A DNA stretch of 64,000 nucleotides from Bradyrhizobium ontarionense (GTDB lineage: Bacteria; Pseudomonadota; Alphaproteobacteria; Rhizobiales; Xanthobacteraceae). Made by a program: the position numbers and the translations under genes. Positions 13,784 to 40,900 of the stretch are shown here, one piece after another (position 1 is the first letter of the stretch; each line of letters begins with the position of its first letter). Where the stretch lies: positions 930,001 through 994,000 of the forward strand of contig NZ_CP088156.1 of the NCBI RefSeq assembly GCF_021088345.1, written 5' to 3'. A model generated the notes under the pieces. It did not search any database. It was not told where the DNA came from and was given only the letters and a program-made list of their open reading frames with translations.

Positions 13784-14683
13784 TCAGCGCGCTTCCGAGG
13801 TCCGCTCGAGCGTGGCGACGGCGCTCCGATAGCGACGACTGCCCTGGACCCTATGCCCCGTGTCGAAGGTGAGGTCGAAATCGCCGGATGGCCGGACCGC
13901 GACCGCAGTGACCCGGGCGAGGTTGGCGAGCCGGCCGCGGTGGATCCGGACAATGCTGAAGCCAGCGAGATCCGTCTCGGCTGCCGCCAACGTGCCGCGG
14001 ATCAGGTGCTGCCTGCCATCGGCGAGGTCGTATTCGATGTAGTTGCCGGCCGAATTGATCCACAGGATCTCGGCCGGCGAGATGCGCACCCGGCTCGTGC
14101 CGTCACGCAGCCAGAGCGCGGCGGGAGCCGGCGCCGCGCTCTGGCTGCGTGACGAGACTGGCCCTTCCATGGCTCCGCCGTCGCGATCGAACAGCCAGAT
14201 GGCGCCCCCGATGAGGACGGCCGTCATGATGTCCTTGCGGAACTCGTAGACGATCGTTGCCAGCGAGAGCTGGAAATCATAGCTGCCGCCCGCCGACCAC
14301 ATCAGGAGCTTGCGCAAGATCACCATGCCGGCGATGTGGAGCGCAGAGAAGGCGAGGATGACCGCGAGCGCGATCGCAGCCCGGGTCGCCCAGGCCGGTG
14401 ACCGGCGAAGGGTTCGGACGGCGACGAGGAGCAGGGGCGCGAGCAGGATGATGACGAGGATGCTCGTCATCTCCCACAACAGCGGGGTCCGGACATCATA
14501 GATCGCGCCGCGCTTCGCGGCATCCTGGGCCGCGGACAATGCGTTGACGAGACCGGTGCTGAGCGAGATCGCCGCGACTGCGGCATAGAAGATGCGGTCG
14601 TTCGGGCGGGACACGGAACCCGAGGCAGAACTCAGGACAGAACCCAAGACAGAACCCAAGACAGAACCTACGAGCTTGTTCAT
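13784..14683 (-). CDS. Membrane-bound LytTR-family DNA-binding regulator
   Basis: A 299-aa protein with four predicted transmembrane helices (about residues 30-50, 70-90, 100-125 and 150-170) and a C-terminal LytTR DNA-binding domain (about residues 195-295, LWLRDGTSRVRISPAEILWINSAGNYIEYDLADGRQHLIRGTL). It therefore resembles a one-component membrane regulator without receiver domain. The first 20 residues are a GSVL tandem repeat encoded by 12-bp DNA repeats. A downstream start is possible because that repeat is not typical of the family. Ligand and targets are unknown. It is divergent from the suf operon. Confidence 0.85.
   Translation of the reverse strand: MNKLVGSVLGSVLGSVLSSASGSVSRPNDRIFYAAVAAISLSTGLVNALSAAQDAAKRGAIYDVRTPLLWEMTSILVIILLAPLLLVAVRTLRRSPAWATRAAIALAVILAFSALHIAGMVILRKLLMWSAGGSYDFQLSLATIVYEFRKDIMTAVLIGGAIWLFDRDGGAMEGPVSSRSQSAAPAPAALWLRDGTSRVRISPAEILWINSAGNYIEYDLADGRQHLIRGTLAAAETDLAGFSIVRIHRGRLANLARVTAVAVRPSGDFDLTFDTGHRVQGSRRYRSAVATLERTSEAR
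14624..14668 (-). repeat. 12-bp tandem repeats at the start of the LytTR gene
   Basis: Two exact copies of GACAGAACCCAA (14636-14647, 14648-14659), a partial third (14660-14668) and a diverged copy upstream (14624-14635). They encode GSVL units, so changes in copy number keep the frame. Confidence 0.85.
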
Positions 14684-36212: not shown

Positions 36213-37439
36213 ATGACCGCTTATGACCTGAACGAACTGCCCGTCACCTTGAATGCCGTGCGTGCTGCGGCCGAGACGATCGGCGGCGCGGTGCTCGCGA
36301 CTGCCTGCAACCAGAGCCGAACCTTGGGCGAGATCTGCGGCTGCAACATCTGGCTGAAATTCGAAAACCTGCAGTTCACCTCCTCGTTCAAGGAGCGCGG
36401 CGCGTTGAACCGGCTGAACGCACTGTCTGCCGAGCAGAGAGAGCGCGGCGTGATCGCGATGTCCGCCGGCAACCACGCGCAGGGCGTGGCCTATAATGCG
36501 AGGCGTCTCGGCATCCCCGCCACCATCGTGATGCCCGTGGGCACGCCGATGGTGAAGGTCGAGAACACCCGCCGGCACGGCGCCGAGGTGGTCATCTCCG
36601 GCGCGACCCTGGAGGAGGCCGGCGCGTTCGCCCGCGAGCACGGCGCGGCGCACGGTATGACCATGATCCACCCTTACGACGATCCGCTGATCATCGCAGG
36701 GCAGGGCACCGTCGCGCTGGAGATGCTCGCGGCGGTGCCGGCTCTCGACACGCTGGTCGTGCCGATCGGCGGCGGCGGCCTGATCTCGGGCATGGCGGTT
36801 GTAGCGCGCGCGCTCAAGCCGTCCTTACGCATCGTCGGCGTTCAGGCCGAGCTCTACCCGTCGATGTACAACGCCGTCCGTGGCGCTCAGCTGCCGATGC
36901 GTGGCGATACGCTAGCCGAGGGCATCGCGGTGAAATCGCCGGGCCGGATCACGACCGAGATCATCCGCCATCTCGTCGACGACGTTCTGCTCGTCACCGA
37001 GCCGCAGATCGAGCGCGCGCTGGCAACGCTGATCTCGATCGAGAAGACCGTGGTCGAAGGCGCCGGTGCCGTCGGCCTCGCCGCGGTGCTCGCACACCCC
37101 GGCGACTTCGCGGGGCGCAATGTCGGGCTGGTGCTGAGCGGCGGCAACATCGATACGCGGCTCATCGCTTCGGTGCTGACCCGCGAGCTCGCCCGCGAGG
37201 GACGGCTGACGCAGCTGTCGATCGACATCGTCGATCGCCCGGGACAGCTCGCGGCCGTGTCGACGCTGCTCGGCGATGCCGGCGCCAACATCATCGAGGT
37301 GTCGCACCAGCGCACGTTCTCGGACCTGCCGGCGAAGGCGACGCTGCTGGAGCTGGTGATCGAAACGCGCGACCATGCGCATCTGAACGACGTCATGGCG
37401 AAGCTCGCTTCAGCCAATTTCAAGGCGCGCTGCACCTGA
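36213..37439 (+). CDS. Threonine dehydratase with C-terminal ACT domain
   Basis: A PLP enzyme of 408 aa that deaminates threonine (and possibly serine) to 2-oxobutyrate. It has the PLP Lys in FTSSFKERGALNR, the SAGNHAQGVAYNARRLG loop, the GGGGLISG phosphate-binding motif and SGGNID. Residues 330-408 are one ACT domain (LSIDIVDRPGQLAAVSTLLGDAGANIIEVSHQRTF), as in the TdcB-ACT or short IlvA-like group. An ATG at 36201 is also in frame. The last 21 bp of the gene (37419-37439), coding FKARCT-stop, are repeated exactly 1.2 kb downstream. Confidence 0.93.
   Translation: MTAYDLNELPVTLNAVRAAAETIGGAVLATACNQSRTLGEICGCNIWLKFENLQFTSSFKERGALNRLNALSAEQRERGVIAMSAGNHAQGVAYNARRLGIPATIVMPVGTPMVKVENTRRHGAEVVISGATLEEAGAFAREHGAAHGMTMIHPYDDPLIIAGQGTVALEMLAAVPALDTLVVPIGGGGLISGMAVVARALKPSLRIVGVQAELYPSMYNAVRGAQLPMRGDTLAEGIAVKSPGRITTEIIRHLVDDVLLVTEPQIERALATLISIEKTVVEGAGAVGLAAVLAHPGDFAGRNVGLVLSGGNIDTRLIASVLTRELAREGRLTQLSIDIVDRPGQLAAVSTLLGDAGANIIEVSHQRTFSDLPAKATLLELVIETRDHAHLNDVMAKLASANFKARCT
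37419..37439 (+). repeat. 21-bp direct repeat, left copy (3' end of threonine dehydratase gene)
   Basis: Starts TTCAAGGCGCGCTGC and ends in the TGA stop of the dehydratase gene. It is identical to 38638-38658; the bases before and after the two copies differ. The repeats bracket the RNA ligase gene. Confidence 0.95.
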
Positions 37440-37479
37440 CAGATGGTGTGTACCGAATAACTCGTTTGGATCGCTTCCG

Positions 37480-38607
37480 ATGTTCAAGGTCATTCAGCAT
37501 ATCTCCGACGTCGAGCCTGCCGTCGCGGGAAAGAAGGAGATTCGCTTCCTCTCGCAGCCCAATGGCATCACGCTCGGCTGCTACCTGTTCATGGATTCCA
37601 AGACCTTCGACTCCCCCGAGGCTTTGGAATGCCGCGGGATTGCGTTCGATCGCGAGGGCCGCGTCGTATCGCGGCCGCTGCACAAGTTCTTCAATGCCGG
37701 CGAGAAGGAGTGGCTGGCGCCGGACCGTCTGGTCTTGCGCGACGACATCGTCGCGATCTACGACAAGCTCGACGGCAGCATGGTCGCTACCGCCTGGGTC
37801 GAGGGCGAGCTGAAATGGCGATCGAAGAAGTCCTTCAACTCGGAGGTCGTCAATCTGGCGACGCAGTTGCTGGATCAGCCGGAGCATAGCGGCATCAACG
37901 CCTTCGCCTGGGAGGTCGCGAGCGCCGGCCTGACGGCGATCTTCGAGCTCACGCATCCGGACGCCCGGATCGTCGTCGCGCAGGAGCAGCCTGAGCTGCG
38001 ACTGCTGCATGTGCGGGACAACGTCACCGGCCAGTATGTCATGCTGGACAGAGGTCATGTCGTTCATGACCTGATCGCGGGCCACGGCATTCCGCTGGTC
38101 CATCGCTTCGACGGCTTGTCGCTTTCAGCCGCGATCGACTCGCTCGCCGACATGCAGGGCAGGGAGGGCTACGTCATCCAGTTCGCCAATGGCGACATGG
38201 TCAAGATCAAGTGCCCCTGGTACCTGCGCATCCATCGCAGTCTCTCGTTCCTTCGCGAGCGCGACATCGCCTGGTTGGCGCTCAACGAGGAGCTGGACGA
38301 CGTGAAGGGCGCGCTGGTCGAGGCTGGCATCGACCTTGCGGCCGTGAACGAGGTTGAGGCGCGGCTGAAGCGCATGCTCTCCGGATTTGTGGATGAGATC
38401 GAGGCCATCTGGGAGCGGGGCCGCGATCTCGACCGCAAGAGCTTTGCGATCGCCAACAAGGATCATCCGTTGTTCGGTCTGGCGATGCAGCGCTACCTCG
38501 GCAAGGAGGTGACCTTGCTCGAATGGTACGGACGCACACGGCTGAAGGACGATTTTAGCCTGCGCGCGCTGGTGGACGAGACGTTGATCGATGCCCTCGA
38601 TGGCTGA
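37480..38607 (+). CDS. T4 Rnl1-type RNA ligase
   Basis: A 375-aa ATP-dependent RNA ligase of the T4 RnlA/Rnl1 family, joining 3'-OH to 5'-phosphate RNA ends. The nucleotidyltransferase motifs are intact. Motif I KLDGS has the AMP-accepting Lys at K96, preceded by ECRGIAFDREGRVVSRPLHKFFNAGE. FELTHPDARIV lies near residue 155, motif IV is EGYVIQF (E229) and motif V is VKIKC (K242, K244). The C-terminal helical part (250-375) could be tRNA-specific as in T4 Rnl1. No polynucleotide kinase or nuclease gene is adjacent. The gene is bracketed by 21-bp direct repeats, which suggests acquisition as a cassette. The start ATG 37480 has TTTGGA upstream. Confidence 0.9.
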   Translation: MFKVIQHISDVEPAVAGKKEIRFLSQPNGITLGCYLFMDSKTFDSPEALECRGIAFDREGRVVSRPLHKFFNAGEKEWLAPDRLVLRDDIVAIYDKLDGSMVATAWVEGELKWRSKKSFNSEVVNLATQLLDQPEHSGINAFAWEVASAGLTAIFELTHPDARIVVAQEQPELRLLHVRDNVTGQYVMLDRGHVVHDLIAGHGIPLVHRFDGLSLSAAIDSLADMQGREGYVIQFANGDMVKIKCPWYLRIHRSLSFLRERDIAWLALNEELDDVKGALVEAGIDLAAVNEVEARLKRMLSGFVDEIEAIWERGRDLDRKSFAIANKDHPLFGLAMQRYLGKEVTLLEWYGRTRLKDDFSLRALVDETLIDALDG

Positions 38608-38637
38608 GCGCCGACGGTGACTCCGCCGCCGGGCGGC

Positions 38638-38658
38638 TTCAAGGCGCGCTGCACCTGA
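38638..38658 (+). repeat. 21-bp direct repeat, right copy
   Basis: Exact copy of 37419-37439, lying 31 bp after the RNA ligase stop. Read in the dehydratase frame it would again encode FKARCT-stop, here preceded by Gly-Gly codons. Confidence 0.95.
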
Positions 38659-38690
38659 GGGAGCGCGCCGCGAGACGTCGGACTGCCGCT

Positions 38691-38711
38691 GGGGGGGACG
38701 GCGACCCCCCC
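38691..38711. terminator. G7/C7 hairpin between RNA ligase and SDR genes
   Basis: Seven Gs (38691-38697), a 7-nt loop and seven Cs (38705-38711), located between two convergent genes. GAGACG (38672-38677) and CGTCTC (38715-38720) could extend the structure. No U-run follows. Confidence 0.5.
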
Positions 38712-38718
38712 GTGCGTC

Positions 38719-39477
38719 TCACACCCAACCGCCGTCCACGATGTAGTGCTGAGCGGTGCAGGCCGAGGCCTCATCGGAGGCGAGGAAGACGGTGAACTTC
38801 GCCACCTCGTCGGGAATGAGCTTCCGCTTCAGGCATTGCCGCTGCATGAGCTCGACCTCGCCCTGCGGGGTCATCCATTTCTCGAGCTGGCGCTCGGTCA
38901 TGATCCATCCCGGCGCGATCGCGTTGACGCGGATATTGTAGGGACCGTAATCGCGTGCCAGCGAGCGCGTGAGACCGATCACGGCTGACTTGCTGGCCGT
39001 GTAGGCGGCCATGCCGCCTTGTCCAGCCATCCACGATATTGAGCCGAAATTGATGATGACGCCGGCATTCGCGGCCTTCATGTCCGGCAATACGGCTTGC
39101 GCGGCGAAGAACTGGTGCTTCAGGTTGACCGCAACGCGGTCGTCCCAATACTCCGGCGTCATCTCATCGGTGCTGTGCCGTTCGTCATTGGCGGCATTGT
39201 TGATGAGGATGTTGATCGCGCCGTGCGTGCTGTGTGCCTCGGCGACGCCGGCGCGCAACGCGGCGGTGTCGGTGAGGTCGACGTACTGGAACTGCGCGCT
39301 GAGACCTCGATCCGACAGCTCGCGTTCCAGACGTCGGCCTTCATCGGCCTTGATGTCGAAGAACACGACATTGGATCCCTGCTGCGCAAATCGCCGCACG
39401 ATCGCAGCGCCTATTCCCGATGCACCGCCGGTCACGAGAACGACCTTGCTCGCGAGATCGGAATAGGTGGCGGCCAT
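38719..39477 (-). CDS. SDR-family oxidoreductase next to the sugar cluster
   Basis: A 252-aa short-chain dehydrogenase: cofactor motif TGGASGIG, NNAAND in place of NNAG, catalytic Ser in INFGSISW, YTASK and a C-terminal VDGGWV. The style resembles sugar dehydrogenases such as L-fucose or galactose dehydrogenase-type SDRs. It is transcribed divergently from the ABC transporter operon, so it probably acts on the same sugar and may be under the same LacI regulator. The start ATG 39477 follows GGGGAG. Confidence 0.88.
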   Translation of the reverse strand: MAATYSDLASKVVLVTGGASGIGAAIVRRFAQQGSNVVFFDIKADEGRRLERELSDRGLSAQFQYVDLTDTAALRAGVAEAHSTHGAINILINNAANDERHSTDEMTPEYWDDRVAVNLKHQFFAAQAVLPDMKAANAGVIINFGSISWMAGQGGMAAYTASKSAVIGLTRSLARDYGPYNIRVNAIAPGWIMTERQLEKWMTPQGEVELMQRQCLKRKLIPDEVAKFTVFLASDEASACTAQHYIVDGGWV

Positions 39478-39589: not shown

Positions 39590-39640
39590 AATTGAGGACA
39601 GGATTACCGTCAACAAAAGAAGCCGGTTGGGAGGACTGTG

Positions 39641-40900
39641 ATGAGATTGCTCGCGAAGCTGGGCCTCGCCGCTACCGCATGCCTGCTTTGGGCCAGCGCC
39701 GCTGCGGCTGACACCACGGTGAAGTGGCTGCACCTCGAGGTCAATCCGGCACAGGTCAAGATCTGGGAGGAAGTGGCCCGTGCCTATGAGGCGTCGCATC
39801 CGGGCGTCAAGGTCGAGATGCAGTTCCTCGAGAACGAGGCCTACAAGGCCAAGCTGCCGACCATCCTGCAATCGAAGGATCGGCCGAACATCATCTACAG
39901 CTGGGCCGGCGGCGTGTTGAAGACGCAAATCGAGGCCGGCGTCCTCGAGGACATCACCGATCAGGTGAAGGGCTACAGCGACAGCCTGACACCGGCGGCG
40001 CTCGCGGCATTCACCGACAATGGCCGGGTTTACGGCCTGCCGATCTCGCTCTCCCAGGTCGGCTTTCTCTGCAACAAGGAGCTGATGGCCAAGGCGAAGG
40101 TCGATCCCGCCGCCATCAAGAGCTGGGACGATCTGCTGAGCGCCGTGAAGACGTTGAAAGCCGCCGGCGTGACGCCGATCGTGGTCGGCGGCGCCGACAA
40201 ATGGCCGCTGCACTTCTACTGGACGCATCTTGCGGTGCGCATCGGCGGCAAGCCGGCGTTCGAGGCAGCATTGCGCGGCGAGAATGGCGGCTTCGCCGGC
40301 GAGACCTTTCAGAAATCCGGCGAGTTGTTCAAGCAACTCGTCGATCTCCAGCCGTTCCAGAACGGTTTTCTCGGCTTCAAGAATCCGCAGGCCGTCGGTT
40401 ATTTCGGCGACGGCAAGGCCGCAATGACGCTCGCGATCAGCTCAGTCTACAATCTGCAGCGCGCGCTTGCCGCCGACAAGGTCGGATTGAGCGAAGACAA
40501 GATCTGCTGGTTCGATTTCCCGACCGTGGTCGGCGGCAAGGGTTCGCCCACGGATACGCTGGGCGGCATCACCGGCTGGCTGGTCACCAAGGGCTCGCCG
40601 AAGGAGGCGGTCGATTTCCTGAAATATTTCATCTCGAAGGACGTGCAGACGCGGCTTGCGGCCGGCAACTTCATCATCCCGGTGGTGCAGGGCGCGGACG
40701 CCGGACTCAACAATTCCTTCATGAAGCTGATCGCGGCCAATCTGGCGAAATCGAACTATCACCAGAACTTCTACGATCAGAGCCTCGGCCCCTCGGTCGG
40801 TCGTGTCGTCAACGACGTCACCGCGGAGATCGCCGGCGGCAGCATGAGCCCGCAGGACGCCGCCAAGGCGATCGAGGCCGCGCGGAAGCAGGGCAACTGA
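39641..40900 (+). CDS. Sugar ABC transporter substrate-binding protein (CUT1 type)
   Basis: A 419-aa periplasmic binding protein of extracellular family 1. It has a signal peptide (residues 1-23, ending ASAAAA), the early KWLHLEVNPAQVKIWEEVARAYEASHPGVKVEMQFLENEAYKAKLPTILQS region and late FLKYFISKDVQTRLAAGNFIIPV. ATG 39641 follows GGGAGG at ideal spacing. It is the first gene of a tightly packed operon; the first permease gene begins 1 bp after the stop. Confidence 0.92.
   Translation: MRLLAKLGLAATACLLWASAAAADTTVKWLHLEVNPAQVKIWEEVARAYEASHPGVKVEMQFLENEAYKAKLPTILQSKDRPNIIYSWAGGVLKTQIEAGVLEDITDQVKGYSDSLTPAALAAFTDNGRVYGLPISLSQVGFLCNKELMAKAKVDPAAIKSWDDLLSAVKTLKAAGVTPIVVGGADKWPLHFYWTHLAVRIGGKPAFEAALRGENGGFAGETFQKSGELFKQLVDLQPFQNGFLGFKNPQAVGYFGDGKAAMTLAISSVYNLQRALAADKVGLSEDKICWFDFPTVVGGKGSPTDTLGGITGWLVTKGSPKEAVDFLKYFISKDVQTRLAAGNFIIPVVQGADAGLNNSFMKLIAANLAKSNYHQNFYDQSLGPSVGRVVNDVTAEIAGGSMSPQDAAKAIEAARKQGN

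Follow-up and report, generated by a model that had tools for sequence, protein, structure and literature searches.

The locus that holds the RNA ligase gene of Bradyrhizobium ontarionense A19 is probably, at an estimated probability of about 0.82, a hybrid, formed from two versions of one site by homology-facilitated illegitimate recombination (HFIR) or by a single crossover followed by a deletion. HFIR would be the simplest single event; we infer the direction of the exchange, the number of events and the route. The features of the locus are listed in Table 1, where positions are those of the window, the whole 64,000-nt stretch of DNA that was analyzed. The threonine dehydratase scored 645 bits against a cut-off of 496 for NCBIfam PRK07334, and the NCBIfam matches of the ABC transporter substrate-binding protein fall below their cut-offs.

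Table 1. Features of the A19 dehydratase-ligase locus, in window coordinates.
Feature	Position	Strand	Remarks
Threonine dehydratase (threonine ammonia-lyase) gene, 412 aa	36201..37439	+	ORF; PF00291 and ACT; homologous anchor of the proposed exchange
21-mer copy 1	37419..37439	+	functional dehydratase end, joined to the ligase
Dehydratase-ligase spacer, 40 bp	37440..37479	+	resembles ORS285 spacer
T4 Rnl1-type RNA ligase gene, 375 aa	37480..38607	+	PF09511; sole gene between the copies
30 bp after the ligase	38608..38637	+	resembles ORS285 ligase flank; putative non-homologous joint at right end
21-mer copy 2	38638..38658	+	taken as non-functional remnant of the resident dehydratase end
Dehydratase-SDR spacer relic, 60 bp	38659..38718	+	matches S58
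SDR-family oxidoreductase (SDR) gene	38719..39477	-	orthologue at same site in S58 and G002
Sugar-type ABC transporter substrate-binding protein gene	39638..40900	+	right-hand anchor common to site versions

The sequence-only reading had reported a perfect 21-bp direct repeat (TTCAAGGCGCGCTGCACCTGA) around the ligase gene and had judged it too improbable for chance, and both points were borne out. The two copies are 100% identical at the positions in Table 1 and lie 1219 bp apart from start to start; copy 1 comprises the final six codons and the stop of the dehydratase gene. Outside the 21 bp the copies are dissimilar, with 11/30 bases identical on the left and 8/30 on the right. A chance origin of the repeat was rejected, since no two identical 21-mers lay within 2 kb of each other in any of 40 simulated 64-kb sequences (order-3 Markov). 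There are two such pairs in the real window, the second belonging to a 12-bp tandem array at 14636; this array consists of 4.4 copies of GAACCCAAGACA (window 14616-14668). Throughout the 8,435,845-bp A19 genome (one contig), the exact 21-mer occurs at just these two sites, and allowing up to 3 mismatches adds a single site, which carries 3. Seven of the 265 genomes examined from the genus contain the 21-mer (≤1 mismatch), always at dehydratase ends; it is doubled in A19 only and single in the other six. The dehydratase itself was found in 241 of the 265 genomes at E 1e-150 or better.

The closest species to A19 reported in PMC11035471 is B. oligotrophicum S58 (ANI 88.8). The site was read in 11 genomes, comprising A19 and the ten with the nearest dehydratase, and it exists in alternative versions. 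The gene order is dehydratase-ligase-transporter in SSBR45G, ORS285 and ORS278, dehydratase-SDR-transporter without the ligase in S58 and G002, and dehydratase-transporter with neither gene in BTAi1 and G231. The neighbors of the dehydratase are different in G101, and the data for G199 and G100 stop approximately 0.6 kb past the dehydratase gene. Thus, the ligase is at the site in 4/11 genomes and the SDR gene in 3/11, and they occur there together only in A19. Additional stretches from G223, G163, G084 and G056 were covered, and neither the ligase nor the SDR of this clade stands beside the dehydratase at the dehydratase sites of the first three. The SDR orthologues at the site in S58 and G002 share 91-92% protein identity with that of A19; among the other genomes read, relatives at 58-60% lie elsewhere in five, and three lack any at E 1e-90. 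In SSBR45G, 2.8 kb follows the ligase before the transporter, and this interval holds an 841-aa ORF (L040 5150-7675, minus strand), an insert observed in none of the remaining ligase strains that were read.

The dehydratase and two genes upstream of it are common to A19, S58 and the three other ligase strains, at 85-89% DNA identity to A19. Among the four ligase strains the ligase is 85-89% identical and the dehydratase 86-89%, with the A19 ligase DNA 13-14% distant from those of SSBR45G, ORS285 and ORS278. The similar divergence of the two genes indicates that the ligase and the site diverged together and that their link is old in the clade.

The DNA to the right of copy 2 derives from the SDR version of the site. 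The 60 bp following this copy aligned with the S58 dehydratase-SDR spacer at a score of 53, compared to 23.2±5.7 for shuffled sequences (0/2000 as good), and the A19 and S58 spacers both terminate in CCGTGCGTC. The 40 bp to the right of copy 1 did not match the same S58 spacer (8 versus 7.0±4.8 shuffled). Since the S58 match is found to the right of copy 2 only, the flanks identify copy 2 as what is left of the original dehydratase end in the SDR version and copy 1 as the end paired with the ligase. The S58 match gains no confirmation from the G002 spacer, which has diverged too far (6 versus 1.9±3.9 shuffled), and the flank of copy 2 scored 17 against the SSBR45G ligase spacer, compared to 9.1±4.7 (6% of shuffles). 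On the ligase side, the significant matches were to ORS285, both for the A19 dehydratase-ligase spacer (equalled by 2% of shuffles) and for the 30 bp after the ligase (equalled by 0.15%); neither SSBR45G nor ORS278 gave a significant match to these flanks. A hairpin at copy 2, which also forms at the junction in S58, was given no weight; its folding is no better than that of shuffled sequences. Seven G and seven C form a hairpin at window positions 38691-38711, between the ligase and SDR genes, and these runs are missing from the S58 spacer.

Under the preferred reading, the A19 lineage would at first have carried a dehydratase-SDR-transporter site like that of S58, and would have received a DNA fragment from a relative with the dehydratase-ligase arrangement. 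This fragment would have paired with the resident dehydratase and crossed over inside that gene, which would be the homologous end of the event, while its other end, approximately 30 bp past the ligase stop, would have been fused non-homologously to the resident dehydratase, 21 bp short of where its stop codon ends. The product would be a complete dehydratase with a donor end (copy 1), the ligase, 30 bp, the 21-bp 3' end of the resident dehydratase gene (copy 2) and the SDR gene. Alternatively, a circularized fragment could have integrated by a single crossover, with subsequent deletion of most of the duplicated dehydratase, which would leave the same anatomy. The one-sided homology expected of an HFIR product is present, as the dehydratase and upstream genes are shared, and so is a joint of the non-homologous type, where 30 bp of ligase flank give way to an S58-like dehydratase tail and SDR spacer, although the donor is unsampled. 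The identical 21-mer also occurs in 4/10 of the other genomes read (S58, ORS278, G199 and G231), so a perfect match between two independent gene ends is unsurprising. In addition, copy 2 is noncoding and still perfect, which at 12% divergence would have a chance of approximately 7% by simple arithmetic; the splice therefore probably postdates the species splits. The genomes compared included no intermediate strain.

Laboratory experiments in PMC3240628 describe both HFIR and partial duplications via single crossover; in the E. coli results given there, 56 of 60 tested clones were single-crossover duplications and four appeared to be HFIR. The A19 locus resembles those single-crossover integrants in having cargo between a full gene and a partial duplicate, but the duplicates reported for sequenced clones in PMC3240628 span 109-950 bp and the A19 duplicate is 21 bp. 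This is shorter than the RecA threshold of approximately 30 bp quoted in PMC2884548, so the single-crossover route needs a later deletion. The clone counts weigh against HFIR at the A19 locus, as does the description of HFIR in naturally competent species. PMC5361080 suggests HFIR as the origin of natural gene arrays. As in the HFIR products and small variable segments described in these sources (PMC2884548, PMC3240628, PMC5361080), A19 has a short segment without mobility genes behind a conserved anchor, with one end homologous and the other not. In contrast to those products, the A19 case is read by comparison only, the 3-10 bp of micro-homology expected at an HFIR joint being checkable only with the donor, and it lacks the deletion that usually accompanies such events, apart from resident dehydratase sequence that would have been replaced by that of the donor.

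The same sequence would also result from events in the reverse order, in which a resident dehydratase-ligase site received the SDR gene and a 21-bp dehydratase tail from an S58-like strain, with the joint at the left end of the incoming piece. Trees of the downstream genes group A19 with S58 (90/96) and those of the upstream genes leave its position unresolved, and AU tests, which do not discriminate between the two orders, reject no alternative (A19 with SSBR45G downstream, p 0.089; A19 with S58 upstream, p 0.164; A19 with SSBR45G upstream, p 0.271). The attempt to prove the mosaic by trees was therefore not decisive. However, S58 is the closest species by whole genome and has the SDR version, which makes this version the likelier resident, and the grouping of the downstream genes with S58 points the same way, although an incoming piece could include them. 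We consider the reverse order unlikely.

The sequence-only reading had instead suggested a possible minimal mobile cassette, a ligase-only unit integrated in att fashion at the dehydratase 3' end and rebuilding that end. In such a case the repeat would be the att core, and an integrase would act from elsewhere. Several of its observations hold: a single gene of T4 Rnl1 type lies between the copies, no integrase gene is found in that interval, the ligase is added DNA relative to the closest species, and the ligase-free S58 has, as predicted, one uninterrupted 21-mer at its dehydratase-SDR junction. Elements integrated at gene 3' ends duplicate their att site, leaving a direct repeat that restores the gene end and its stop, and the exact A19 repeat likewise includes the stop codon. 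The A19 segment differs from such elements in having one cargo gene and no integrase between its repeats, and in that the repeat is missing from other ligase loci. The single copy at the empty S58 site is unspecific for an integrated element, because that copy is simply the end of the gene. That reading had also named, as counting against itself, a ligase kept at this locus by all close relatives without flanking repeats; this is nearly what was found, as SSBR45G, ORS285 and ORS278 have the ligase behind the same dehydratase with a single copy, while S58 is ligase-free. The best match to the strain's own dehydratase tail downstream of the ligase is 21/21 in A19 (0/500 shuffles as good), compared to 14/21 in SSBR45G (over 2772 bp; 91/500) and 10/21 in both ORS285 and ORS278 (499/500 each), so that none of these three has a second tail beyond shuffle level. 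Flanking direct repeats of at least 14 bp (11-bp seed) were absent from 6/6 other ligase loci (SSBR45G, ORS278, ORS285, G084, Asticcacaulis and Pseudomonas, the last with just 127 bases left of the match). The 21-mer was also looked for beside other cargo genes, and no such case was found in the 265 genus genomes (≤1 mismatch). No tRNA or tmRNA that could serve as an integration target is present in the 64-kb window. A mobile cassette was rejected on the repeat-less ligase loci and the 21-mer survey, and we regard it as very improbable.

Equally improbable is the insertion of a 1.2-kb unit with a 21-bp target duplication, as made by a transposase at a staggered cut. The anatomy alone would fit, as inserting 37440-38637 into an S58-like site duplicates exactly 21 bp; however, the interval between the copies contains no transposase, three other species have this ligase downstream of the same gene with no duplication, the ligase diverged together with the site, and transposon target duplications are usually shorter. 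A plasmid source was rejected because no DNA similar to 37300-38780 was found in 72,556 plasmid records, and a recent phage source because the best phage relative of the ligase is 47.5% identical over the whole protein.

The ligase has the domain (PF09511, Pfam E 1.2e-30), catalytic motifs and fold of a T4 Rnl1-type RNA ligase. The motifs K-x-DGS, EG and K-x-K, which we take to be the catalytic ones, are intact, and the motif lysines are invariant in eight aligned sequences. T4 Rnl1 (PDB 2c5u) is the nearest solved structure by both sequence (phmmer) and fold (Foldseek). The protein, at 375 aa, resembles T4 RNA ligase 1 in motifs, length and nearest fold, but is 24% identical to it in the fold alignment, and its gene is chromosomal, among metabolic genes. 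It scored 152.7 bits against the NCBIfam T4 RnlA equivalog TIGR02308, below the cut-off of 242.25. The structure model (pLDDT 82.5, pTM 0.69, 8 sequences) superimposes on 2c5u with a TM of 0.56 and a large rmsd, so the placement of domains in the model is not trusted. The ligase is probably an active ATP-dependent enzyme that joins RNA ends and, like T4 Rnl1, may act in sealing broken tRNA. Given the 40-bp gap and shared strand, it is possibly co-transcribed with the dehydratase gene. A role as partner of a PrrC/RloC nuclease was considered and rejected, as PF13166 exceeds its cut-off in 3/12 genomes (G002, BTAi1 and ORS285) and the ligase is present in just one of these, ORS285; the one PF13166 match (PrrC/RloC-type) in A19 lies below the cut-off.

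Matches to the ligase were found in 6/265 genus genomes: A19, three at 86-90% protein identity, G084 (75%, elsewhere in its chromosome) and G056 (a remote match at 30%). An order-wide search (E 1e-20) returned, besides A19, only remote relatives, in 8/397 genomes and 32-35% identical. Further relatives are found in Pseudomonas gregormendelii (68%), Asticcacaulis (59%), a viral contig (57%) and Burkholderia phage BcepSaruman (47.5%), and a phage origin of the ligase is likely. In G084 (L051 9157-10281) the relative stands alone behind an aminotransferase-like ORF, and in Asticcacaulis (L063 6001-7125) it stands alone near aldolase-, pgk- and gap-like ORFs, all named from their translations.

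The scar at the A19 locus is best explained as a commonplace trace of genetic exchange among related bacteria and not as a tiny mobile element. Two spliced versions of a site can leave a perfect, att-like repeat at a gene end without any mobile element, and the A19 site is an instructive false att site. It is also a compact natural case of HFIR-type gene gain, in which the genomes of the clade allow the event to be placed against the species splits. More speculatively, and on balance doubtfully, the 3' side of the dehydratase gene may serve photosynthetic bradyrhizobia as a site of exchange at which single genes, including the lone phage-type RNA ligase, would be gained and lost by flanking homology without a mobility gene, and the ligase may be a solo gene of phage origin, found on its own next to housekeeping genes in Asticcacaulis and another Bradyrhizobium as well.
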